A DNA stretch of 24,068 bases, from positions 13,814 through 37,881 of the IMG/VR virus record IMGVR_UViG_3300030333_005619; one strand, 5' to 3'. A program made the position numbers and the translations under genes. The notes beneath the pieces are model-generated. The model saw only the letters and a list, made by a program, of their open reading frames with translations, ran no database searches and had not been told where the DNA came from. Shown here one piece after another: positions 8,693 through 22,668 of the stretch (its first letter is position 1; the number at the start of each line of letters is the position of its first letter). This DNA comes from a virus.

Positions 8693-8724
8693 TATTATCA
8701 CGCAATTGTCACGTTTTTTACTAT
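8693..8724 (-). promoter_or_regulatory. Intergenic motif ATAGTAAAAAA...GTGATAATA, copy 1
   Basis: On the minus strand the 11-mer ATAGTAAAAAA (8714-8724), which overlaps the TAG stop of the glycosyltransferase-like gene, is followed 12 bases later by the 9-mer GTGATAATA (8693-8701). Both words recur in the same order between 9678 and 9656, and both copies lie about 30-40 bases upstream of a gene start. This may be a late-gene promoter or a processing site. It does not match the Bacteroidota housekeeping promoter well. Confidence 0.3.
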
Positions 8725-9626
8725 TTTTTTGCTTTTGGCTTTCTATTATCAATAAACCAATTTTTATATACATCACGCTTTTTGCAAATATAATCAAAAT
8801 ACTTATCAACTTTTTCTTTCCAATTTTTATCTATATTTGGATTTATAATACCAGATTTATAACTTGAAAAGCATTTATCTATATATTTCTTAACATGATG
8901 TTGATTGTCAAATAAATGACTATTTATACATGCAAAGGATCCATGCATAACGTTATTCCAAACATCAATAGGTTCTATCTTTTTACCTAATACAGAAGCA
9001 TAAACTGCACTCTCGCTAATATGTGTTGTATAAATATGCTTTGCTTTTTGCATATAATAATACATATCTATTTCTCTAGGTAATATATTTTCTTCACCAA
9101 AGAAATCTTTTAGTTCACCAATTATTTGATGAGTTGTTATAGGATGTGGTTTAAAATATACATTATCACCATGTTTTTTAGATATTTCTTTTAATCTATT
9201 TAAACAAACATTAGTTTTAACCTTATTTGAACCAGGTAATATAACTAAGTAATCTTTAGCAGGGTAAGCATCAAAAGATTCTTTTCTATGTTGATATTTA
9301 TTTGCGTTTTTGCTTACAATATTTTTTACTAAATAAGATGACCAATCGGATACATCTTTAACATCATGATTCCAAGCATCAATCATTTGCTCATTTCTTA
9401 ACTTTAAATTCAAAGGTTGCATGTAAAAATTAGTTGCAAACTCTGTATAAGCCATTGTTTTAAAATAAGGCATTTCTTCTGCTAAAACATCATAACTATA
9501 TTCCAAACCTAATTCGCTACATTTTCTTATAACGTATCCTTCTACGACTTCTAAGTCTTCTAGGTTTTTATTTTTCTTAAGAGGACCTATTCTTTTATCT
9601 AGTTCCTTTCTATTAAACATTTCCAT
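8721..9626 (-). CDS. Glycosyltransferase-like protein (GT-B-like C-terminal half)
   Basis: The 301-residue product has, in order, a strand and loop YLVILPGSNK (126-135), the motif FKPHP (158-162), and THISESAVYASVLGKK (201-216), followed by IEPID. The KPHP element and the later [ST]-x-S-x-x-x-Y-x-x-x-x-x-G-K-K element occur in the nucleotide-sugar-binding half of GT-B-like enzymes of capsule synthesis, such as KpsS/KpsC and CDP-glycerol transferase relatives. The N-terminal third matches nothing I recognise. There is no signal peptide or membrane segment, so it would act in the cytoplasm. It follows the second Thr/Ser/Asn-rich giant directly, which makes virion-protein glycosylation a reasonable idea, but acceptor and donor are unknown. 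It could also modify host surface sugars. The start used is the first of two nearby ATGs (MEMFNRK). Confidence 0.5.
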   Translation of the reverse strand: MEMFNRKELDKRIGPLKKNKNLEDLEVVEGYVIRKCSELGLEYSYDVLAEEMPYFKTMAYTEFATNFYMQPLNLKLRNEQMIDAWNHDVKDVSDWSSYLVKNIVSKNANKYQHRKESFDAYPAKDYLVILPGSNKVKTNVCLNRLKEISKKHGDNVYFKPHPITTHQIIGELKDFFGEENILPREIDMYYYMQKAKHIYTTHISESAVYASVLGKKIEPIDVWNNVMHGSFACINSHLFDNQHHVKKYIDKCFSSYKSGIINPNIDKNWKEKVDKYFDYICKKRDVYKNWFIDNRKPKAKK

Positions 9627-9684: not shown

Positions 9685-12600
9685 CTACTCCCCAGTATTC
9701 CTATTAAGATTCACCCTTTCCGTGCTATAATCTTTTCTATATGTGTTATACCAAGCTCTAGTAGTACTAACTGTTGTTGTAGTGGTAGTTGATATAGTAG
9801 TACCAGTAGACGTATTGTAAGCTGTAGTAGTAGTCTTACTTGTTTCTACTGCAGTATTAGTTGTTTTACTAGTTTCATAAGCTGTACTAGTACTCTTGTT
9901 AGTCTGATATGTAGTCGTATATAATGTTATTGTACTAGTACTCGTATTAAACACTGTTGTAGTACTCTTATTAGTGCTCCATTGAGTTATAGTATTATTA
10001 CTAGTTGACCATGTAGTAGTATATGATGTCGACGTTGTTGTACTCGTGTTAAACGTTGTCGTGGTATTTGTACTCGTATTAAACGCGGTAGTAGTAGATT
10101 TACTAGTTTCAAAAGTTGTACTTGTAGACTTAGTTGTATTCCAAGTAGTAGTATAAGAAGTAGTAGTAGCAGTTTGAGTGTTATACGTTGTAGTGGTACT
10201 GGTTGACGTATTATACGCAGTAGTAGTACTCTTACTTGTCTCAACAACAGTTGTGGTTGACTTACTAGTGCTCCATGTGGTAGTATAAGCAGTTGTGGTT
10301 GCTGTTGTAGTATTAAAAGTTGTTGTTGTACTCTTATTTGTACTCCAAGTTGTCGTTGTATTTTTATTTGTAAGAGAACTAGTTTCAAATATAGTTGTTT
10401 TACTTGTTTCCCAAGTAGTAGTATATTCTGTGTTTGTAGCTGTACTTGTATTCCATGTAGTTGTTGTACTCTTACTAGTTTCAACCACAGTGCTTGTAGA
10501 TGTACTAGTATTGAACGTAGTTGTAGTTGACTTGCTAGTTTCTACAACAGTAGATGTTGACTTACTAGTAGTAGTTGATGTGTTCCATGTTGTAGTGGTA
10601 GCTGTCTGAGTATTAAACGTAGTCGTTGTGTTAGTACTAGTATTAAAAGTTGTACTTGTTGTTTTATTAGTAGACCAAGTAGTTACCCATGACGTTGTTG
10701 TTGATGTTTGAGTATTAAACGTAGTCGTAGTATTAGTACTAGTGTTCCAAGTTGTAGTAGTTGATTTACTTGTCTCTACAACCGTATTTGTACTCTTACT
10801 AGTTGTTGTAGCTGTATTAAATACTGTTGTAGTTGATGTAGAAGTATTATACGTTGTGCTAGTTGATTTTGTAGTATTATACGTAGTAGTTGTACTTTTA
10901 GATGTAGATACTACCGTTGACGTTGATTTAGATGTAGACCAAGTAGTTGACGTTGAAGTATTATACGTAGTAGTTGTATTAGTTGACGTATTATATGTTG
11001 TCGTAGTGCTTGTACTAGTATTGTAAGCTGTAGTTGTACTCTTAGTAGTATTATACGTTGTTGTAGTATTCTTGCTGGTTTCAACTACAGTGCTAGTCGA
11101 TCTACTTGTGCTAACCACTGTTGTTGTGGCTGTATTATATGTAGTTGTTGTACTTGTGCTAGTGTTAAATGTGGTTGTAGTACTTGTACTAGTATTAAAG
11201 GTTGTAGTAGTATTCTTACTAGTTGAAACAACAGTAGCTGTACTCGTATTAAATACTGTAGTAGTATTAGTACTAGTATTAAATGTGGTTGTAGTAGCGG
11301 TACTAGTGTTAAATGTAGTTGTAGTAGACTTATCTGTGCTCCACGTAGTATTAGTGTTTTTACTTGTACTCCAAGATGTTGATGTACTAGTATTATACGT
11401 AGTTGTTGTACTTTTTGTTGTATTATAAACAGTATCTGTACTTCTTAATGTGTTATAAACTGTAGTGGTAGTAGTACTTGTATTAAAAGCTGTACTAGTA
11501 GATTTACTTGTCTGAACTACAGTAGATGTACTAGTATTAAATGTTGTAGTAGTTGATTTACTAGTATTATATGTAGTAGTAGTTGCTGTACTTGTATTAA
11601 AGGCAGTCGTTGTACTCTTACTAGTGCTTACTACAGTATTTGTTGATTTACTTGTTGATACAACGGTAGCTGTAGATCTATCAGTACTAACTACAGTAGA
11701 GGTGCTGGTATTAAATGTTGTAGTCGTATTAGTTGAGGTATTAAATGTTGTGGTTGTGGCAGTACTAGTATTAAAAGTAGTTGTCGTACTCTTGTCAGTT
11801 GACCAAGTAGTGTTTGTGCTTCTGTTAGTGCTGACAACTGTGTTTGTACTAGTGTTGAATGTTGTTATTGTATTAGTACTTGTATTAAATGTGGTTGTGG
11901 TAGATTTACTAGTTTCATATGTAGTGGTTGTCGATTTTGAAGTCGACCAAACAGTACTTGTGCTCCTATTTGTTGATACAACTGTATTTGTGCTAGTATT
12001 AAACGTAGTGGTTGTATTAGTTTGCGTATTATACGTAGTTGTTGTTGTTGTAGACGTATTAAAAGTAGTCGTCGTGCTAGTACTCGTATTAAATGTTGTA
12101 GTTGTACCTTTATCAGTGCTTACTGTAGTCGTAGTAGATGTGTTAAAAGTAGTGGTTGTAGCAGTAGAAGTATTAAATCTTGTTGTTGTTGCTGTAGTAG
12201 TATTAAACGTAGTTGTTGTAGATTTATTAGTACTCCACGTAGTTGTAGTTGATTTATTAGTACTCCACGTAGTTGTGGTTTGCGTGTTATAAACTGTTGT
12301 GGTTGATTTACTAGTATTATATACAGTATCCGTACTTCTATTTGTATTATATACAGTTGTCGTCGTTGTGCTTGTATTAAATACTGTAGTTGTTGACTTA
12401 CTAGTTTGAACAACAGTTGTAGTAGTCGTATTAAAGGCAGTAGTAGTACCAGTTGACGTATTAAACGTTGTTGTCGTAGCAGTTGTTGTATTAAATGTTG
12501 TAGTAGTTGATTTACTAGTTTCCCACGTTGTGGATGTTAAATGTTTTGTAGTTGTTGACGTGTTAAACGTAGTAGTTGTATCAAAAACAGTTGTTGTGGA

Positions 12601-13962
12601 CTTAGTAGTTAATTTAGATGTAGACCAAGTAGTATTCCAAGAAGTAGTAGTATTTTTAGACGTAACTGTAGCTGTATTAAATGTTGTAGTCCAAGATGTT
12701 GTAGTTGATCTACTAGTAGATCTAGTAGTGTTCCAAGTTGTTGTTCTATTTGTAGCCCAAAGAGTTGTGTATGTGGTTAATGTACTAGTATTAAATGTAG
12801 TAGTTGTGTTTTTGTTTGTAGATACTACCGTTTCTGTTTGTTTTTTAGTAACTGTAGATGTATTAAACACAGTATTAGTTTCAAAAGTAGTTGTAGTTGA
12901 ATGCTGGGTTTGAGTTCCCGTATTAAACGTAGTTGTGGTATCTGTACTCCTACTAGTTGTTGTAGTGGTGTTAAATGTTGTGGTATAAGATGTAGTAGTG
13001 TTTTTACTTGTTTCCCACGTTGTAGTGTAAAGCGTTTGTGTTGATGTTGTTTTAGACGTGTTGAATGTAGTAGTCCAAGATGTTGTGGTATCTTTAGACG
13101 TAAGAGTAGATGTATTAAATGTTGTTGTAGTACTTTTGGTTGTTACAGTACTTGTGTTCCACGTAAGTGTTGTTATAAATGTTGTTGCTGTATTTTTACT
13201 TGTAGCCCAAGTGGTATTATATTCTGTTACTGTTGCTTTACCTGTAGTCCAAGTCGTAGTCCAAGATGTTGTAGTTGTTTTTGAAGTGGTTGTACTTGTG
13301 TTCCACGTGGTTGTATAAACTGTATTAGTAACTGTAGATGTATTATATGCGGTGTTAAATACTGTTGTAGTACTTTTACTTGTTGCTGTACTAGTATTAT
13401 ATGTAGTAGTATATACTGTTACTGTGTCTGTAGAAGTATTATATGTAGTAGTAGTATCTCTTTGTGTTATTCTACTGGTACTCCAGGTCGTAGTCCATGA
13501 CGTAGTAGTAGTCTTACTTGTTTCTGTATTTCGATAAGTTGCATCCCAAGTCTCCCACGTGGTACTAGTGGTTTTTGAAGTTGATCTAGTTGTATTCCAC
13601 GTTGTAGTTGTACTTCTTGTAGTAGTTTTAGAAGTCTCATGTGTACTACTGGTTTCCCACGTTGTAGTTTTACTAGTATTCCAATTTGTTGATACAGCCT
13701 CTTCCCAAGTTGTTGTTTTTGAAGTTGACCTACTTGTGGTTTTACTTGTTATTTTACTAGTTGTTGTACTAGTATTATAAGACGTATTCCTCCAAGTATT
13801 ATAATATGTTGTTCTACTTGTACCTCTTGTGGTATTAAAAGTTGTTGATCTAGTTATCTGTGTTGAAGTAGACGTAGCAACACCTGTAGGCACACCTGTC
13901 TGGTACGTCGTAGTTCTAGTTGTGTTCCAAGAAGTATTATACGTAGTAGTAGTATTAGGCAT
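9685..13962 (-). CDS. Giant Thr/Ser/Asn-rich repeat protein 1 (1425 aa), putative virion fibre
   Basis: The product is dominated by Thr, roughly half of the central region by eye, with Ser, Asn and regular aromatic residues. The basic unit is 10 residues, [FYWV]-[NSEQ]-T-x-[TKR]-[STNA]-T-x-T-x, for example FNTSTATTTT and WSTSKSTTTT, mixed with 8-residue units such as FNTSTNTV. Thr, aromatic and Lys/Arg residues share one parity of position through the parts checked, so the chain alternates like a beta-strand. The N-terminal 200 residues are less regular and richer in Arg, Trp and Tyr; the C-terminus ends in a non-repeat, charged stretch (AWYNTYRKDYSTERVNLNRN). I saw no Cys, and Pro and Gly are rare. 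The start ATG overlaps the upstream gene by 8 bases and has a good Shine-Dalgarno. It lies in the late region beside a fibre-like gene, so a tail fibre or other virion appendage is inferred. Function is not established. Confidence 0.85.
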   Translation of the reverse strand: MPNTTTTYNTSWNTTRTTTYQTGVPTGVATSTSTQITRSTTFNTTRGTSRTTYYNTWRNTSYNTSTTTSKITSKTTSRSTSKTTTWEEAVSTNWNTSKTTTWETSSTHETSKTTTRSTTTTWNTTRSTSKTTSTTWETWDATYRNTETSKTTTTSWTTTWSTSRITQRDTTTTYNTSTDTVTVYTTTYNTSTATSKSTTTVFNTAYNTSTVTNTVYTTTWNTSTTTSKTTTTSWTTTWTTGKATVTEYNTTWATSKNTATTFITTLTWNTSTVTTKSTTTTFNTSTLTSKDTTTSWTTTFNTSKTTSTQTLYTTTWETSKNTTTSYTTTFNTTTTTSRSTDTTTTFNTGTQTQHSTTTTFETNTVFNTSTVTKKQTETVVSTNKNTTTTFNTSTLTTYTTLWATNRTTTWNTTRSTSRSTTTSWTTTFNTATVTSKNTTTSWNTTWSTSKLTTKSTTTVFDTTTTFNTSTTTKHLTSTTWETSKSTTTTFNTTTATTTTFNTSTGTTTAFNTTTTTVVQTSKSTTTVFNTSTTTTTVYNTNRSTDTVYNTSKSTTTVYNTQTTTTWSTNKSTTTTWSTNKSTTTTFNTTTATTTRFNTSTATTTTFNTSTTTTVSTDKGTTTTFNTSTSTTTTFNTSTTTTTTYNTQTNTTTTFNTSTNTVVSTNRSTSTVWSTSKSTTTTYETSKSTTTTFNTSTNTITTFNTSTNTVVSTNRSTNTTWSTDKSTTTTFNTSTATTTTFNTSTNTTTTFNTSTSTVVSTDRSTATVVSTSKSTNTVVSTSKSTTTAFNTSTATTTTYNTSKSTTTTFNTSTSTVVQTSKSTSTAFNTSTTTTTVYNTLRSTDTVYNTTKSTTTTYNTSTSTSWSTSKNTNTTWSTDKSTTTTFNTSTATTTTFNTSTNTTTVFNTSTATVVSTSKNTTTTFNTSTSTTTTFNTSTSTTTTYNTATTTVVSTSRSTSTVVETSKNTTTTYNTTKSTTTAYNTSTSTTTTYNTSTNTTTTYNTSTSTTWSTSKSTSTVVSTSKSTTTTYNTTKSTSTTYNTSTSTTTVFNTATTTSKSTNTVVETSKSTTTTWNTSTNTTTTFNTQTSTTTSWVTTWSTNKTTSTTFNTSTNTTTTFNTQTATTTTWNTSTTTSKSTSTVVETSKSTTTTFNTSTSTSTVVETSKSTTTTWNTSTATNTEYTTTWETSKTTIFETSSLTNKNTTTTWSTNKSTTTTFNTTTATTTAYTTTWSTSKSTTTVVETSKSTTTAYNTSTSTTTTYNTQTATTTSYTTTWNTTKSTSTTFETSKSTTTAFNTSTNTTTTFNTSTTTSTSYTTTWSTSNNTITQWSTNKSTTTVFNTSTSTITLYTTTYQTNKSTSTAYETSKTTNTAVETSKTTTTAYNTSTGTTISTTTTTTVSTTRAWYNTYRKDYSTERVNLNRNTGE
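11440..12336 (-). repeat. Long super-repeat in giant 1, landmark spacing 894 bp
   Basis: The landmark VYNT[NL]RSTDTVYNT[ST]KST occurs twice. The Ser codon after its Arg lies at 12334-12336 in the first copy and at 11440-11442 in the second, exactly 894 bases (298 codons) apart. Similarity extends on both sides: VVQTSKST and FNTSTTTTT precede both landmarks and a WST[ND]KSTTTTFNT stretch follows both. The same 894-base spacing separates the equivalent landmark pair in giant 2. Confidence 0.75.
11692..12267 (-). repeat. Four consecutive 48-residue (144-bp) blocks in giant 1
   Basis: From 12267 down to 11692 the frame divides into four blocks, each of four 10-residue units followed by one 8-residue unit. 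The 8-residue units are FNTSTTTT, FNTSTNTV, FNTSTNTV and FNTSTSTV, and the residue after each is Val. The block immediately before also ends in an 8-residue unit (YNTQTTTT, 12268-12291). Bases within the blocks have diverged, mainly at third codon positions. Confidence 0.8.
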
Positions 13963-15055
13963 TTTCGTCTCCTTTCATTAGTATATGATTGACAAAATAG
14001 TTACCATTAATCAAAACCCTAGATATACAGTATTTTGTATCTGAACTATCAAAATCAATTTTAAGTATCTCTTCTTCACCCTCAGGTAAAATTTTAAATA
14101 ATTTATCACCAACAACAACTTCATTCATTGGTTTTTCTATCCAAGAGCCATCTCTTTTTATTATCATTGGATGGTTTCCTGTTACTTTTATTAATCCATC
14201 ATTAATAATATAAACCCCTTTTCCAGTCATAGCAACTGTTCTACCACTTGCTTTAGGAACTAAATTAGGATTACTAGGATCAGCACATGTTAAAATATCT
14301 TCATTATGAACGGCTAATATTCGCTTTGTACTATCTAAATCTTTACTAATAATAGCATCGTTATAATTATAAAAGCCACTATGAAATCTTTCGTCATCTG
14401 TTTTTGTTCCTGCAACAACACCCATACCAGTTGTCCATGGTGTTAATATTTTTAAAGGAACTTTATAAACATCTTTATTATAATATGAGTTTAATGGAGG
14501 ATCAACAGCTACATCAGTAAAAGAAACATTATCCCAATAAAACTTCATATATGGATCAGAATCTCCACCGCTAAAATTCCACCAAGTTATTTTACAACCA
14601 GTTTTAACACCTTTTCTATTAGCAAATTCCCTGAAACGAGGATGCAAATCATCATCAGCATATGTATCCATTAATATTGAATCATATCTAGTATTACCAT
14701 TAATCAATGTTAACCATCTATCTTCATGCAAAATAATATTAGACTTTCCACTAGCCCATTCCCTCATCTTTGGTATTATATCTGGGTGATTCTCACATAT
14801 AGTATGTGATGCTGGATTTCTAGCTTGAATAGCATCAGACAAAATACCCATTCCAAAACCACACTCAAGAACATGGTCCCCTTCGGATACAGTTAGCTCT
14901 GCCATTTTTTCCATAATAGGTCGTTCCCAATCCATCATAACCTCTAAAGTTCCTGGTGAAAATTTATCATTATCCACAGTACTATCAAAAGTTATCTTAT
15001 CACTTTCGAACTTTAATTTTGCGTTCCAATATTCTTTTTGAATGTCTGTTGCCAT
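13955..15055 (-). CDS. GAMT/RMT2-like methyltransferase fused to a Hint-like domain
   Basis: Residues about 20-165 resemble S-adenosylmethionine methyltransferases of the guanidinoacetate / protein-arginine (RMT2) type: VMMDWERPIMEKMAEL (39-54), motif I VLECGFGMGILSDAIQ (62-77, with E64, G66, G68, G70), an acidic end of the second strand HTICENHPDII (84-94), REWA (98-101) and LMDTYADDD (128-136). Residues about 245-366 resemble a Hint (hedgehog/intein) fold: VTGNHPMIIKRDGSWIEK (291-308) with the block B His295, VVVGDKLF (313-320) and a final NYFVNHILMKGD (352-363), which parallels the last strand of Hint domains. The terminal His-Asn of inteins is missing (MKGD instead) and no clear first Cys is seen, so self-splicing is unlikely. 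The gene sits exactly between the two Thr-rich giants and overlaps the second by 8 bases. Neither part was checked by search; substrate is unknown. Confidence 0.65.
   Translation of the reverse strand: MATDIQKEYWNAKLKFESDKITFDSTVDNDKFSPGTLEVMMDWERPIMEKMAELTVSEGDHVLECGFGMGILSDAIQARNPASHTICENHPDIIPKMREWASGKSNIILHEDRWLTLINGNTRYDSILMDTYADDDLHPRFREFANRKGVKTGCKITWWNFSGGDSDPYMKFYWDNVSFTDVAVDPPLNSYYNKDVYKVPLKILTPWTTGMGVVAGTKTDDERFHSGFYNYNDAIISKDLDSTKRILAVHNEDILTCADPSNPNLVPKASGRTVAMTGKGVYIINDGLIKVTGNHPMIIKRDGSWIEKPMNEVVVGDKLFKILPEGEEEILKIDFDSSDTKYCISRVLINGNYFVNHILMKGDENA
13963..13974 (-). promoter_or_regulatory. Shine-Dalgarno sequence of giant 1
   Basis: The message reads AAGGAG (13969-13974), a six-base spacer and then the ATG of giant 1. 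This is a textbook Shine-Dalgarno, in contrast to the A/T-rich leaders of most other genes here. It also lies within the end of the methyltransferase-Hint gene (coding GDENA), which suggests reinitiation after that gene's stop. Confidence 0.6.
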
Positions 15056-15085
15056 ATTTAATTATTCACTTGTTTATTAATATTT

Positions 15086-18000
15086 TTATATACAACCTCT
15101 CATACAACCACCGCCTCCAGTTTCTGTATATCTATATGTACTTCTAGTTGTTATATACGTCGTGTTTCTACTAGTATTACGATTTGACGTATACGACGTG
15201 TATGTATTATTAGTATATATAAACACTGTAGTCGTACTAGTATTATATGTGGTATTAAATACTGTAGTAGTACTCGTATTATATACTGTTTGGGTACTTG
15301 TATTATAATTAGTATCCCACGATGTTGTATACGTTGTTGTAAAATCAGTAGTATATGTAGTTGTGGTACTAGTATTATACCTTGTTACAGTAGCAGTTTG
15401 ATATATAGTAGTTGTTGATGTGTTCCAGTAGGAAGTTGTGTTGTAGTATGTAGTCCATGTTGTTGTAGTAGATGAACTAGTTTCATACGTAGTGGTCCAA
15501 GTAGTTGTTGTATCTCTACTAGTATTATGAGTATTTGTATTTTGTATGAACGTTTGTGTAAGATACGTTGTAGTAGTAGATTTACTAGTTGTTGTAGACG
15601 TATTCCACGTGGTAGTATATTCAGTTGAAGTATCTGTTGACGTGTTATATTCAGTGCTAGTAGAATGTTTTGTTATTGTCGACGTATTATACGCAGTGTT
15701 ATAAACGGTTGTCGTACTGTGGTTAGTTATTGTACTAGTATTATACTCAGTTGTTGTATTACGATTCGTAACTCGACCAGTTGACCACACAGTAGTATAT
15801 ACTGTTGTTGTGCTTTTACTAGTTGTTGTTGATGTATTAAACACAGTTGTAGTACTATGTTTTGTTACCGTAGTTGTGTTAAATACAGTTGATGTAGCTC
15901 TAACTACAGTACTATTTCTTGATGTTGCCCAAGTTGTTGTATAAGCTGTAGTTGTAGATTTAGTAGTAGACCACTCTGTGTTCCATGATGTAGTAGTCGT
16001 TTTACTAGTAGTAGTACTCGTATTAAACGTAGTTGTTGTATTTGTTGCTTTGTTTGTTACAGTAGATGTATTATAAGCAGTTTGAGTACTCTTTGAGGTT
16101 ACTGTAGAAGTATTAAACGTAGTGTTAAAATGAGTTGTTGTTGAGGTAGCTCTAGTAGTATTCCACACAGTTGTATAAATTGTAGTAGTACTTCTAGTAG
16201 TCGCTGTATTTTTAGATGTAGTCCAACTAGTAGTATAAAAGGTAAAAGTACTTGTTTGTGTATTATATACTGTCTCAGTAGATTTATTAGTACTCCAAGT
16301 AGTAGTATGCTTAGTTATTGTAGATGTATTAAACGTAGTAGTTGTACTTGTATTAAATGTCGTGTTAAACGTTGTTGTGGTACTCTTAGATGTAGTGGTA
16401 CTTGTGTTAAAAGTAGTTGTAAAAGCTGTTGTAGTTGACTTAGACGTAGTAGTACTTGTGTTAAAAGTGGTAGTATACTGCGTTGTTGTACTTCTAGACG
16501 TTGATGTAGACTTGCTAGTAGACCAAAGGGTTGTGTATACAGTTAACGTATCAGTTGATGTATTATAAGCAGTAGTAGTGCTTTTACTTGTGCTCACTAT
16601 AGTATCAGTACTCTTACTTGTGCTCCAAGTAGTTGTAGTAGTTTTAGATGTTGACCATTTCGTAACCGTTGAAGTATTATATACTGTAGTTGTACTTTTA
16701 CTAGTTTCCCAGGTTGTAGTTGTTGATTTAGTTGTATTATATACTGTATTAGTACTTCTCTCGGTATTATATACTGTAGTGGTTGACTTACTAGTCTGTA
16801 TAACAGTAGTTGTAGATGTATTAAAAGTTGTAGTAGTGCTGGTACTAGTATTAAACGTGGTAGTTGTATTTTTACTTGTAGACCAAGTTGTATTTGTTGA
16901 TCTAGTAGTAGACCAAGTTGTAGTAGTAGATTTAGATGTACTAACCACAGTATCAGTACTTGTGTTAAAGACTGTTGTAGTATTTTTACTTGTAGACCAG
17001 GTCGTTAAAGTACCTTTACTAGTAGACCAAGTTGTTGTAGTGCTTTTACTAGTTTGTACTACAGTAGCAGTAGATTTACTAGTACTTACGACTGTCGCTG
17101 TTGAGGTATTAAACGCGGTAATTGTATTAGTAGACGTATTAAAAGTAGTTGTTGTTGATTTGCTAGTTTCATACGTTGTAGTAGTAGATTTATTTGTGCT
17201 CCAAGCAGTAAGAGTTGATTTAGTAGTACTCACAACAGTATTTGTACTAGTATTGAATGTAGTCGTGGTAGCTGTTGTGGTATTGAAAGTAGTAGTAGTA
17301 TTTTTACTAGTTGACCACGTTGTTGTTGTATTCTTGCTAGTTGACCATTGTGTTGAGGTTGATTTATTAGTACTCACAACTGTAGTGGTAGCAGTATTGT
17401 AAGTGGTAGTTGTATTAGTACTAGTATTAAATGTTGTGGTAGTAGCTGTTTGTGTATTGTATACCGTTGTAGTACTCTTATTAGTTAACCACGTAGTAGT
17501 TGTGCTCTTACTGGTTTCGTATGTTGTTGTCGTAGATTTACTTGTACTTACAACAGTTGTAGTAGCTGTATTATAAACAGTAGTTGTACTCTTAGTCGTC
17601 TCCCAAGACGTTGTGGTTGATTTAGTAGTGTTATAAGTTGTGTTAGTACTCCTGTCAGTGTTATATACTGTAGTAGTTGATTTACTTGTTTCAATAACAG
17701 TAGTTGTAGACGTATTGAAAGTCGTAGTTGTTGAAGTAGTTGTATTAAATACAGTTGTAGTATTTTTGCTAGTACTCCACGTGGTAGTAGTGCTTTTATT
17801 AGTACTTACTACAGTAGATGTTGACTTAGATGTTGATACAACAGTTGTAGTGCTGGTATTCCAAGTTGTAGTTGTAGACTTGTTAGTACTCCATGATGTT
17901 ACAGTGCCTTTACTGGTACTCCAAGTAGTATTAGTGCTTTTGCTAGTACTTACAACTGTACTTGTGCTAGTATTAAAAGTAGTAGTGGTATTTGTGCTAG

Positions 18001-19360
18001 TATTAAATGTTGTTGTAGTACTCTTAGATGTCTCGTATGTAGTTGTTGTTGACTTACTGGTTTCATATTGTGTTGTAGTACTTTTAGATGTACTTACTAC
18101 AGTTGCTGTTGCTTTTGATGTACTTACAACTGTATTTGTAGAAGTATTAAATGTCGTTGTTGTGTTAGTACTAGTGTTAAACGTGGTGGTTGTAGATTTG
18201 CTGGTTTCGTATGTAGTAGTGGTGTTTGTACTTGTATTAAACGTCGTTGTAGTACTTTTATTAGTACTCCAAGTTGTTACATATGTTGTCGTAGTGGAAG
18301 TTTGAGTATTATATGTTGTTGTTGTTGAAGTACTGGTGTTATAAGCAGTGGTAGTACTTTTACTAGTAGAAACAACTGTATTAGTAGATTTACTAGTTGT
18401 AGTACTAGTATTGAAAGTAGTTGTTGTATTAGTTGAAGTATTATATGTAGTGCTTGTAGTTTTACTTGTACTTACAACCGTGTTAGTAGATTTATTAGTA
18501 CTCCAAGTCGTAGTCCATGATGTAGTTGTATTTGTAGAAGTATTATAAGTTGTCGTAGTAGACTTGCTGGTTGATACTACGGTATTAGTGGTAGTAGATG
18601 TGTTGAACGTAGTAGTAGTTGATTTACTAGTTGATACTACAGTGTTTGTATTTTTATTTGTTATTGATGATGTTATAAATATCGTTGTTCTACTAGTGTT
18701 CCAAGTTGTTGTATACTCTGTATTAGTAGATGTAGATGTGTTGAACGTAGTTGTAGTACTTTTATTAGTTGACCAACTAGTATTAGTAGACTTAGAAGTT
18801 ATAGTACTTGTGTTAAAGGCAGTTGTAGTACTTGTAGATGTGTTAAATGTAGTGGTAGTAGATTTATTAGTCTCGTATGTAGTAGTTGTAGATTTACTAG
18901 TACTAACCACAGTATTTGTGCTTTTACTAGTTACAGTGGATGTATTAAATGTTGTAGTGGTATTTGTACTTGTATTATAAGTAGTAGTAGTTGATTTATT
19001 AGTTGACCAACTAGTTGAAGTTGACTTATTTGTTGAAATTACCGTATTAGTATTTTTACTAGTGGTTGTACTAGTATTATATGCTGTGGTAGTTGTAGTG
19101 CTTGTATTAAACGCAGTCGTAGTTGACTTATTTGTAGATACTACTGTATTTGTAGCTATTTGGGTAATAGTACTAGTGTTAAATGCTGTAGTAGTGTTTG
19201 TTGAAGTGTTATATGCGGTTGTGGTGCTTGTAGACGTATTATACGTCGTAGTAGTAGACTTACTAGTCGCCCAAGTTGTAGAAGTCGACTTTGTAGTCGA
19301 CGTGGACTTTGTAGTCGCTGTATTCCAAAAGTCTTTTTTGAAGAAGCCTAACCATTTCAT
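15086..19360 (-). CDS. Giant Thr/Ser/Asn-rich repeat protein 2 (1424 aa), putative virion fibre
   Basis: This is a paralogue of giant 1, almost the same length and built from the same 10- and 8-residue units. Near the N-terminus 14-residue units such as FNTSTVTSKSTNTV recur, and 4-residue spacers (YTTT, WTTT) also occur. The N-terminus is different: MKWLGFFKKDFW, a short hydrophobic and basic segment before the repeats begin. The last 200 residues are less regular, with many Tyr and Trp, and end in TETGGGGCMRGCI, where the two Cys are the only ones I saw. The 8- and 10-residue steps keep Thr at alternating positions. The gene follows the fibre-like gene by 15 bases and is followed by the methyltransferase-Hint gene. 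It probably forms a long virion appendage or fibre; secretion or a mucin-like surface role are alternatives. Function is inferred from context only. Confidence 0.85.
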   Translation of the reverse strand: MKWLGFFKKDFWNTATTKSTSTTKSTSTTWATSKSTTTTYNTSTSTTTAYNTSTNTTTAFNTSTITQIATNTVVSTNKSTTTAFNTSTTTTTAYNTSTTTSKNTNTVISTNKSTSTSWSTNKSTTTTYNTSTNTTTTFNTSTVTSKSTNTVVSTSKSTTTTYETNKSTTTTFNTSTSTTTAFNTSTITSKSTNTSWSTNKSTTTTFNTSTSTNTEYTTTWNTSRTTIFITSSITNKNTNTVVSTSKSTTTTFNTSTTTNTVVSTSKSTTTTYNTSTNTTTSWTTTWSTNKSTNTVVSTSKTTSTTYNTSTNTTTTFNTSTTTSKSTNTVVSTSKSTTTAYNTSTSTTTTYNTQTSTTTTYVTTWSTNKSTTTTFNTSTNTTTTYETSKSTTTTFNTSTNTTTTFNTSTNTVVSTSKATATVVSTSKSTTTQYETSKSTTTTYETSKSTTTTFNTSTNTTTTFNTSTSTVVSTSKSTNTTWSTSKGTVTSWSTNKSTTTTWNTSTTTVVSTSKSTSTVVSTNKSTTTTWSTSKNTTTVFNTTTSTTTTFNTSTTTVIETSKSTTTVYNTDRSTNTTYNTTKSTTTSWETTKSTTTVYNTATTTVVSTSKSTTTTYETSKSTTTTWLTNKSTTTVYNTQTATTTTFNTSTNTTTTYNTATTTVVSTNKSTSTQWSTSKNTTTTWSTSKNTTTTFNTTTATTTTFNTSTNTVVSTTKSTLTAWSTNKSTTTTYETSKSTTTTFNTSTNTITAFNTSTATVVSTSKSTATVVQTSKSTTTTWSTSKGTLTTWSTSKNTTTVFNTSTDTVVSTSKSTTTTWSTTRSTNTTWSTSKNTTTTFNTSTSTTTTFNTSTTTVIQTSKSTTTVYNTERSTNTVYNTTKSTTTTWETSKSTTTVYNTSTVTKWSTSKTTTTTWSTSKSTDTIVSTSKSTTTAYNTSTDTLTVYTTLWSTSKSTSTSRSTTTQYTTTFNTSTTTSKSTTTAFTTTFNTSTTTSKSTTTTFNTTFNTSTTTTFNTSTITKHTTTWSTNKSTETVYNTQTSTFTFYTTSWTTSKNTATTRSTTTIYTTVWNTTRATSTTTHFNTTFNTSTVTSKSTQTAYNTSTVTNKATNTTTTFNTSTTTSKTTTTSWNTEWSTTKSTTTAYTTTWATSRNSTVVRATSTVFNTTTVTKHSTTTVFNTSTTTSKSTTTVYTTVWSTGRVTNRNTTTEYNTSTITNHSTTTVYNTAYNTSTITKHSTSTEYNTSTDTSTEYTTTWNTSTTTSKSTTTTYLTQTFIQNTNTHNTSRDTTTTWTTTYETSSSTTTTWTTYYNTTSYWNTSTTTIYQTATVTRYNTSTTTTYTTDFTTTYTTSWDTNYNTSTQTVYNTSTTTVFNTTYNTSTTTVFIYTNNTYTSYTSNRNTSRNTTYITTRSTYRYTETGGGGCMRGCI
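16754..17650 (-). repeat. Long super-repeat in giant 2, landmark spacing 894 bp
   Basis: The landmark VYNT[DE]RSTNT[TV]YNTTKST occurs twice; the Ser codons after the Arg lie at 17648-17650 and 16754-16756, exactly 894 bases apart. About 85 residues before and about 60 after each landmark align without gaps by eye. Both are preceded by a WSTSKGT[VL]T[ST]WST[NS]K stretch and by FNTSTTTVI[EQ]TSKST. Confidence 0.78.
16802..17377 (-). repeat. Four consecutive 48-residue (144-bp) blocks in giant 2
   Basis: From 17377 down to 16802 the frame divides into four blocks of 10+10+10+10+8 residues. The 8-residue units are FNTSTNTV, FNTSTATV, FNTSTDTV and FNTSTTTV, each followed by Val or Ile. The count and total length (576 bases) match the block array of giant 1. 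Confidence 0.8.
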
Positions 19361-19375
19361 ATATTATCATAAGTT

Positions 19376-19981
19376 TTAAGAGAAATCACCAATATAATTC
19401 ACAAGCACGCAGTCTGTAGCCAAAACAATATATGAAATTACTGCAATTTTGTTTGCTGTTGTATCAAAGTTTACTGTTGCACCAGAAGGTGTTTTCATGT
19501 AAGCTGGTAACGCAGCAAAAGTTAACGATCCTACACTTGAAGGATTTGTTATTATTATGTTACCAGATTGACCAATATTTTCAGATGCTACTGTTAATGC
19601 TATTGTTTGATTAGCCGCATTAGCGACTGTAAATTTAAAATTATCATTTAAGCTGAGATCACATGTGTATGTACTACCCGATACAGTTACTGTTGTTACT
19701 GTTCTACGTAGATTTTTAGTTATTAAAGCAGCACCAGTTACAGATAATATAGTACCATCAAATGTTAAATTAGCTTCACCGTTTAAGCTATCAGCATCAG
19801 CAGCTGTTATAATTCTATTATTAGCAGCGTTAGATATATCTACATTACTGTAGTTGTTTTGAATAAAAGTTCCTAAGTCTGATAAAGGATAATTTTTAGT
19901 TACACCAGAAGAATCTGTACCTAAAAGTTTATCAGCTGTTGTTAATGCTGAATCTACTACATAATTTTTAATTCTACCCAT
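19376..19981 (-). CDS. Short tail-fibre-like or virion appendage protein
   Basis: The 201-residue product starts MGRIKNYVVDSALTTADKLL, followed by GTDSSGVTKNYPLSDL (21-36), a pattern common at the N-terminus of phage fibre proteins that describe a list of attributes. Residues 55-84 contain NRIITAADADSLNGEANLTF and DGTILSVTGA, a module I know from many marine phage structural proteins. The remainder is beta-rich, with Thr/Ser/Asn, and looks like a small receptor-side or collar domain. There is no signal peptide. Its start ATG overlaps the stop of the holin gene by one base (TAATG) and the Thr-rich giant follows, so these three genes are probably co-translated. The exact place in the virion is unknown. 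Confidence 0.6.
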   Translation of the reverse strand: MGRIKNYVVDSALTTADKLLGTDSSGVTKNYPLSDLGTFIQNNYSNVDISNAANNRIITAADADSLNGEANLTFDGTILSVTGAALITKNLRRTVTTVTVSGSTYTCDLSLNDNFKFTVANAANQTIALTVASENIGQSGNIIITNPSSVGSLTFAALPAYMKTPSGATVNFDTTANKIAVISYIVLATDCVLVNYIGDFS

Positions 19982-22281: not shown

Positions 22282-22668
22282 TTATGCGTGTTTAGTAAAC
22301 ATGTGGTTAAATACTTCATCTTGTTTATTGTATGCTTCTTTCTCCCATGGTAATTGTTTAGATCCTTCGTTCATATCTTCTCTAGGCCATGTTTCACCTT
22401 TCCAAAATACGAAGTCATCGTTATAATCAAGATCACCACGTTGCATTTGATCATGGTGTACTTGTTCGTGAGCTATAGCTAATTTAGCTTTCTCACTATC
22501 TAAATTTATATCTTTATCTATAAATGTGGTACCATCTTTATTAGCTTCAGCTATAATACCATCATCTAAATCCTTTTTTATAATTTCATCAGATCTTATA
22601 ACATTATTTGAAGTAACATCATTTTGATCGGAATTATTAAAATCCGGAGGATTCATTTTAAACCCCAT
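22282..22668 (-). CDS. Small zincin-like protein with HEQVH motif
   Basis: The 128-residue product has IAHEQVHHDQMQ around an HExxH motif at 67-71, preceded by a helix (SEKAKLAIA) and followed about 40 residues later by LPWEKEAYNKQD (106-117), where E109 or E111 could be the third zinc ligand as in gluzincin-like small domains (the DUF4157/eCIS-core type is the nearest I know). It may be a metal-dependent peptidase acting on a virion or host protein, or a non-catalytic remnant. The start ATG is two bases after the stop of the 34-residue gene; a second ATG four codons further (MNPPDF) is a possible alternative start. Confidence 0.6.
   Translation of the reverse strand: MGFKMNPPDFNNSDQNDVTSNNVIRSDEIIKKDLDDGIIAEANKDGTTFIDKDINLDSEKAKLAIAHEQVHHDQMQRGDLDYNDDFVFWKGETWPREDMNEGSKQLPWEKEAYNKQDEVFNHMFTKHA

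Follow-up and report, generated by a model that had tools for sequence, protein, structure and literature searches.

The thin needle at the tip of the bacteriophage T4 long tail fibre belongs to gp37, a trimeric phage fibre protein whose chain runs out to a tip and returns. The trimer, with seven irons along the needle, has been described (PMC6957217), and the needle measures about 150 x 25 angstrom (PMC3004832). In the 2010 crystal structure the needle is reportedly six-stranded and antiparallel. Other phage tail fibres and spikes carry the S74 (endosialidase) intramolecular chaperone, which usually trimerises one protein. β-Solenoid antifreeze proteins (Rhagium, Tenebrio) present T-x-T arrays with small residues on the other face, and designed β-hairpins of about 20 residues place an aromatic residue opposite Lys or Arg across antiparallel strands as cation-π pairs. 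Small T-rich proteins of 170–220 aa are encoded by phages KVP40 and phi-pp2 (annotated "cell wall mannoprotein") and by the Caulobacter phages Lullwater (gp41) and BL198 (gp46), with no function established in the records read here. Here we describe two neighbouring genes of a marine bacterial virus, encoding proteins of about 1,400 residues that match each other end to end in opposite directions and probably zip together into a very long fibre, inferred to serve in host attachment.

Gene content of the locus

The window analysed is a 24,068-nucleotide stretch (positions 13,814 to 37,881) of the 37,881-base virus record IMGVR_UViG_3300030333_005619. On its minus strand lie an uncharacterised gene (367 aa), a short HExxH protein, a 629-aa protein, a holin, a 201-aa fibre-like gene (fib201, 19376–19981), the giant gB (15086–19360, 1424 aa, 46% T), a methyltransferase/Hint gene (13955–15055), the giant gA (9685–13962, 1425 aa, 48% T), a 301-aa gene (8721–9626), three small genes, the large terminase, portal, a scaffold-like gene and the capsid gene. 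The portal places the virus with podoviruses of Flavobacterium, Cellulophaga, Maribacter and Tenacibaculum. The HExxH protein (22282–22668, 128 aa) has a metallopeptidase-like HEQVHHD motif and is conserved near the holin in many relatives. The fib201 product, upstream of gB, has a tail-fibre-adaptor-like N-terminus, and its C-terminal domain is shared with a YadA-head-repeat protein in L082 (loci compared here are designated by L-numbers). Long Val-rich ORFs on the plus strand, antisense to the giants (9987–13318 and 16578–19379), are shadows of ACN repeat codons and probably not genes.

The N-terminus of gA is MPNTTTT, at the putative tip end, and its C-terminal cap, of the SWY..YRKDYSTER type (here RAWYNTYRKDYSTERVNLNRNTGE), lies at the gB N-terminal end. 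The N-terminus of gB, MKWLGFFKKDFW, and its C-terminus, GGGGCMRGCI, are both conserved. Searches of Pfam, PHROGs and PDB sequences assigned no family to the giants, and tblastn against phage records, with the low-complexity filter on, returned no match.

Two-residue alternation in gA and gB

The original prediction was that residues in both giants fall into two parities, one carrying Thr, an aromatic or Lys/Arg and the other Asn, Ser, Glu, small residues or Val, with even unit lengths of 10, 8, 14 and 4. This observation was confirmed. Mutual information between residue and parity was 0.436 bits for gA and 0.431 bits for gB, whereas 1000 shuffles gave 0.010 ± 0.003 (maximum 0.022). Parity counts for gA were F/Y/W 128:5, K/R 83:5, S 2:210, N 5:121 and E/D 2:36, and gB was the same. 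One parity holds T, K, R, F, Y and W, and the other holds S, N, A, E, Q, V and a third of the T; the claim that one parity carries Thr is therefore corrected to a two-to-one bias (462:219 and 457:191). A two-phase model found no phase slip in gB and one in gA (residue 1418, in the C-terminal cap), against 33–38 in shuffled sequences. A cross-trained alternation likelihood gave +576 and +573 bits, compared with −492 ± 31 and −556 ± 31 after shuffling.

The unit lengths were also right. Spacings of the Φ-x-T-x motif in gA were 79 of 10, 18 of 4, 15 of 8 and 15 of 14 residues, with 139 even and 0 odd in total, and gB had 133 even and 0 odd. As predicted, the phase holds in the irregular N-terminus of gA. 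The two conditions set beforehand as refuting the pattern, equal composition of the parities and frequent odd-length insertions, were both absent. Among 143 relatives and fragments, 6349 spacings were even and 52 odd, and the few slips in relatives lie mostly at inserted globular domains. Of the 52 odd spacings, 37 are 19 residues. A recurring element (YSSHIRSTNR) in gB of the L104–L110 subgroup coincides with phase slips and may be a β-bulge. To examine recent tandem duplication, codons of identical 10-aa words were compared; these differ at 58–59% of codons, as random codon choice would give. Silent sites are thus saturated, recent tandem duplication was rejected, and the pattern is old and kept by selection at the protein level.

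Relatives and gene neighbourhood

To identify relatives, a profile of the methyltransferase was used, which found 25 loci (L088–L112) whose match covers the whole gene including the Hint domain. All have T-rich alternating ORFs next to it, on both sides wherever the contig reaches that far, whereas loci matching only the methyltransferase domain have none. A degenerate DNA pattern for the repeat hit at least 118 stretches of viral contigs and one contig in bacterial genomes, a Flavobacteriales MAG contig carrying the same phage genes. The gene order is constant: fib201, gB, a methyltransferase-like gene, gA, the 301-aa gene, small genes, terminase and portal.

The product of 13955–15055 is a guanidinoacetate methyltransferase (GAMT)-like SAM methyltransferase (aa 1–206; PDB 3orh, E 1.1e-10 over residues 39–195) fused to a C-terminal Hint/intein-like domain (C257, TGNH, NYFVN). 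It is always found between gB and gA in this subgroup. The Hint part occurs only in loci with T-giants, and its TxxH motif is lost in L012. Elsewhere in marine phages, the methyltransferase without Hint sits directly after a tail-fibre gene. In one subgroup (L170, L220, L258, L281) the gene between gB and gA is a different, spermidine-synthase-like Rossmann protein (PF01564, E 0.006, below cut-off, tested for L281).

The 301-aa protein (phrog_26179), a putative GT-B glycosyltransferase-like partner, is present in all 48 terminase-linked loci with giants and absent from all 25 without, with no discordant locus. It belongs to an uncharacterised phage protein family (phrog_26179 and phrog_30602) with a KPHP...SES...GK motif, resembling capsule Kdo transferases and linked to T-rich proteins in Bacteroidota, Caulobacter and some Vibrio phages. 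Its profile has one PDB match below E 10, the Kdo transferase KpsC, at a non-significant E of 2.3 and aligned on the KxHP...S(E/Q)...GK motif; Pfam and NCBIfam gave nothing. A glycosyltransferase acting on Thr/Ser is therefore plausible only. A wider profile search for the family returned only phages already known. A T-rich neighbour was not seen in every phage with a relative of this gene, as it was missing in the Vibrio phages D479, F86 and D484 (DLP_6 could not be scored).

Tail-fibre position and S74 chaperone

In relatives without giants, the same slot, between the holin/fib201 region and TerL, holds a 1700–1850-aa tail fibre; the one scanned (L001, 1848 aa) ends in an S74 chaperone (E 5.7e-19). 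In L170, L176, L181, L209, L220, L232, L236, L255, L258 and L281, gB itself ends in a globular Cys-containing domain followed by an S74-like sequence. Pfam PF13884 is above the cut-off of 22 bits in L170 (23.1 bits) and L209 (23.4 bits), just below it in L281 (19.5 bits), and gave no match in L220. gB is therefore a tail-fibre protein by domain and position, although its presence in virions is inferred. The window's own gB lacks S74 and has GGGGCMRGCI at that end instead (15089–15118), an overhang beyond gA residue 1 in the slot where orthologues carry the Cys-containing domain plus S74 chaperone.

Length locking of gA and gB

For 31 complete gA/gB pairs, decoded stalk lengths (inserts and end domains removed) range from 390 to 1643 residues, correlate at r = 0.995, and differ by a median of 6 residues (0.9%, against 35% when pairs are permuted). 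On a tree of the 301-aa gene, 28 phylogenetic contrasts gave r = 0.999 with a slope of 1.00, and 8 of 8 sizeable changes were in the same direction.

ANTIPARALLEL complementarity of gA and gB

The positions of Φ-x-T-x motifs in gA were found to coincide with those of gB read backwards (79% in the window, against 32 ± 3% after unit-order shuffles), not with gB read forwards. Over 30 pairs, the mean match was 0.61, against 0.42 in parallel (p 5e-9) and 0.38 for foreign partners. No parallel peak was seen, and simple gA/gB duplication was rejected. At the register of greatest mutual information the residues are complementary, F or Y facing K, R or H. In the window, 149 such pairs fall on one register, gA i facing gB 1416−i (1-based), constant to the C-terminus (z≈45). 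The maximum over all registers was 43 ± 2.3 after parity-preserving shuffles and 48.6 ± 3.5 after shuffling unit order, and the best parallel register gave 57. The other 44 protein pairs of the window gave |z| < 2.2. For gA residues 1–136 (13555–13962) the facing register is shifted by two (gA i faces gB 1418−i), with 18 aromatic:cation pairs; including this shift there are 167 pairs, covering 315 of 379 F/Y/K/R/H residues. The ends are flush, with gB's last 9 residues and gA's last 10 the only overhangs.

All 31 complete pairs from viral contigs showed this complementarity (z 11–70), always at a register of about len(gA)−10, with a cross-phage score of 0.47 against 1.13 within a phage. Pooled counts were F:R 859 against 80 expected, F:K 508 against 63, Y:K 495 against 51, Y:R 394 against 65 and N:S 1440 against 616, whereas like-with-like is avoided (Y:Y 2 against 34, F:F 8 against 53, K:K 3 against 19, K:R 5 against 48). 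The loci are related and several come from the same contigs (pairs were de-duplicated by sequence start). E-values and z-scores measure departure from shuffles and not independent evolutionary events. Close relatives keep 500 facing pairs, with few double changes (10 gained together, 6 lost together, 1 swapped, 60 one-sided); compensatory evolution is suggested, not proved. W does not follow the rule: it mostly faces T, and is enriched opposite W, F or Y at shifts of −4, +6 and +10, perhaps a second interface. A second constant register, as a six-stranded barrel might show, was not resolved, because secondary peaks at ±10 match the unit length.

Globular domains of about 130–170 aa (LWRYPD...GAIxNW...RIRLRDS) are inserted in the stalk of giants of L088, L089, L103, L104, L107, L108, L110 and L111, one weakly like a "putative tail fiber" in MW202476. 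Where gA or gB of a relative carries such an insert, the register resumes beyond it, shifted by about the length of the insert, so the insert would loop out of an unbroken zipper. In the contig of L082/L090/L187, gB is split into two frames (676 + 136 aa), a frameshift or assembly error, and the register still holds over the first part.

Self-complementary single-gene relatives

Some loci have one giant (1704–3395 residues) instead of two, and these are self-complementary about their centre. L190/L237 (1704 aa) has 110 pairs (z 48) with a globular domain at residues 819–890, the centre; L245 has 172 pairs and L257 has 175; L286 (3395 aa, truncated) has 226 pairs at centre 1718 (z 72). Relatives of the 301-aa gene in cultured phages led to short versions. 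The KVP40-type Vibrio phage proteins KVP40.0254 (L299, 3193–3786, 197 aa), phi-pp2_249 (L291, 7211–7741) and QD01_260 are hairpins around SVTKGSYS (z 5.8–7.6), with z 3.9 for Lullwater gp41 and z 3.1 for BL198 gp46; Quill gp41 and Cr30 gp254 were not significant. The phi-pp2 record (and a note in QD01) calls this protein a yeast cell wall mannoprotein relative, but it is a phage adaptor-like N-terminus followed by a self-complementary T-rich hairpin. The two-gene form thus reads as a split hairpin: gB is the outgoing arm, gA the returning arm, and the gB C-terminal domain sits where single-gene forms have their turn. The methyltransferase gene, between gB and gA, also lies at the place of the hairpin turn.

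Discussion

The explanation we consider probable is that gA and gB are the two strands of one very long tail fibre of a Bacteroidota podovirus, running antiparallel over their whole length in one fixed register as a continuous β-ladder parallel to the fibre axis. Side chains would alternate between two faces: on one, F/Y of either chain would sit opposite K/R/H of the other (cation-π or similar contacts) with T opposite T between them, and on the other would lie small polar residues (N opposite S, V or N). Complementarity would make the two chains choose each other and the right register. Because the strands would never turn, only even-length changes would survive in each chain and both chains would have to change length together. 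The end with gB's C-terminus and gA's N-terminus would be the tip, where orthologues carry a globular domain and the S74 chaperone, and the other end (gB N-terminus, gA C-terminus) the base. Single-gene relatives would be the same thing as one hairpin, with a tip domain or tight turn at the centre. The analysis itself establishes the pairing rule, the register, the length locking, the hairpins, the gene neighbourhood and S74 in orthologues; the β-structure, cation-π contact, virion location, number of chains, host attachment and glycosylation are inferences from these. Strict alternation with only even length changes, one register over 1400 residues and same-parity facing are what such a ladder requires, in which side chains of facing residues are on the same side and no turn interrupts the phase, but complementarity does not by itself prove β-structure. 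AlphaFold2 models of single chains with repeat-aware alignments (gA 641–900 and a 434-aa gB orthologue) had pLDDT values of 29 and 32 with no confident fold, the weak strands of the second being 5–7 residues long and not continuous, which does not test a two-chain fold. If fully extended at about 0.33 nm per residue, the window's fibre would be roughly 0.46 micrometre long. The S74 chaperone in orthologues suggests three copies, of which a 3+3, six-stranded needle as in T4 gp37 is the likeliest arrangement, and the glycosyltransferase-like protein probably modifies Thr/Ser of the fibre.

Other readings appear unlikely. Two separate homotrimeric β-fibres (triple β-helix or solenoid type), with lengths set by a shared ruler and patterns by common ancestry, would fit with S74 chaperones usually trimerising one protein and with the shared unit repertoire of the giants. 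Common ancestry predicts parallel similarity, however, whereas the match is antiparallel and complementary, like residues avoid facing each other, and single-gene forms are hairpins. Mucin-like, disordered stalks, O-glycosylated on Thr/Ser by the putative neighbouring glycosyltransferase and comparable to serine-rich repeat adhesins, are similarly unlikely; T+S of about 63%, the co-occurring GT-like protein and the absence of a single-chain fold are consistent with this, but a disordered stalk needs neither strict parity, nor even-only spacing, nor a fixed antiparallel aromatic:cation register over 1400 residues. Glycosylation as an addition to the zipper is not excluded.

The original prediction inferred a continuous β-structure with a fibre, ice- or sugar-binding role, recalling the flat T-x-T faces of β-solenoid antifreeze proteins, and was partly supported. 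The continuous β-structure and fibre role are supported by the antiparallel complementarity, locked lengths, hairpin versions, S74 in orthologues and the tail-fibre slot; sugar binding remains conjecture. Each giant as its own ice-binding solenoid is not supported and is very unlikely: although T-x-T arrays are present and many relatives come from environmental viral contigs, no solved-structure or family match was found, aromatic:cation positions break the Thr runs about every 10 residues, the pattern is explained by gA:gB pairing, and single-chain AlphaFold2, which gave no confident fold, showed no solenoid. Finally, complementarity as a by-product of nucleic-acid pairing (F codons TTY against K codons AAR) was refuted by a codon test. 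Complementary bases in facing codons are in slight excess (0.359 against 0.330 ± 0.011), but 36% complementarity cannot form a duplex, T:T is the commonest facing pair, F:R and Y:K are not codon complements, and silent sites are random. Reversal of amino-acid order also cannot come from DNA inversion.

We consider it likely, though not demonstrated, that these proteins form a natural protein "double strand", in which two proteins from neighbouring genes carry complementary sequences (F/Y opposite K/R/H, T opposite T, N opposite S) in antiparallel register over up to 1,650 residues, and in single-gene relatives over arms of about 1,700 residues. They would assemble by this code into a continuous β-zipper fibre several hundred nanometres long, whose length evolves freely because both strands change together. 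We know of no natural pair of proteins whose sequences are long-range complements by a residue-pairing rule, in the way two nucleic-acid strands are, and literature searches found nothing on this architecture, although most subscription papers were outside their reach. If the structure is confirmed, it gives a readable code for antiparallel β-pairing, explains how fibres of very different length evolve without misassembly, and offers a design rule for long self-registering protein filaments. It would also give a function to the family found in viral contigs and in the cultured KVP40-type and Caulobacter phages, in which it can be tested at once.

Comparison with described systems

With the T4 gp37 needle, gA and gB share, on sequence evidence only, a chain that goes out and returns with antiparallel strands. 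The T4 needle is tens of residues, the product of one gene, and is held by His-coordinated iron and a hydrophobic core, whereas the strands here are 400–1700 residues, often from two genes, rich in Thr and follow an aromatic:cation complementarity rule. By composition, the inward HxH iron-binding motifs of T4 are not a feature here, with 3 His in gA and 6 in gB. With S74-bearing tail fibres and spikes, gB orthologues share the C-terminal Peptidase_S74 domain and the tail-fibre locus, but the stalk has no relative in Pfam, PHROGs or the PDB. The KVP40, phi-pp2, Lullwater and BL198 proteins are likewise alternating and T-rich, beside relatives of the 8721–9626 protein, but are short and encoded by one gene. 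β-Solenoid antifreeze proteins share T-x-T arrays with small residues on the other face but fold alone, whereas here the pattern is complementary between two chains. Designed β-hairpins share the aromatic residue opposite Lys/Arg across antiparallel strands, but are short peptides and not natural 1400-residue sequence complements.
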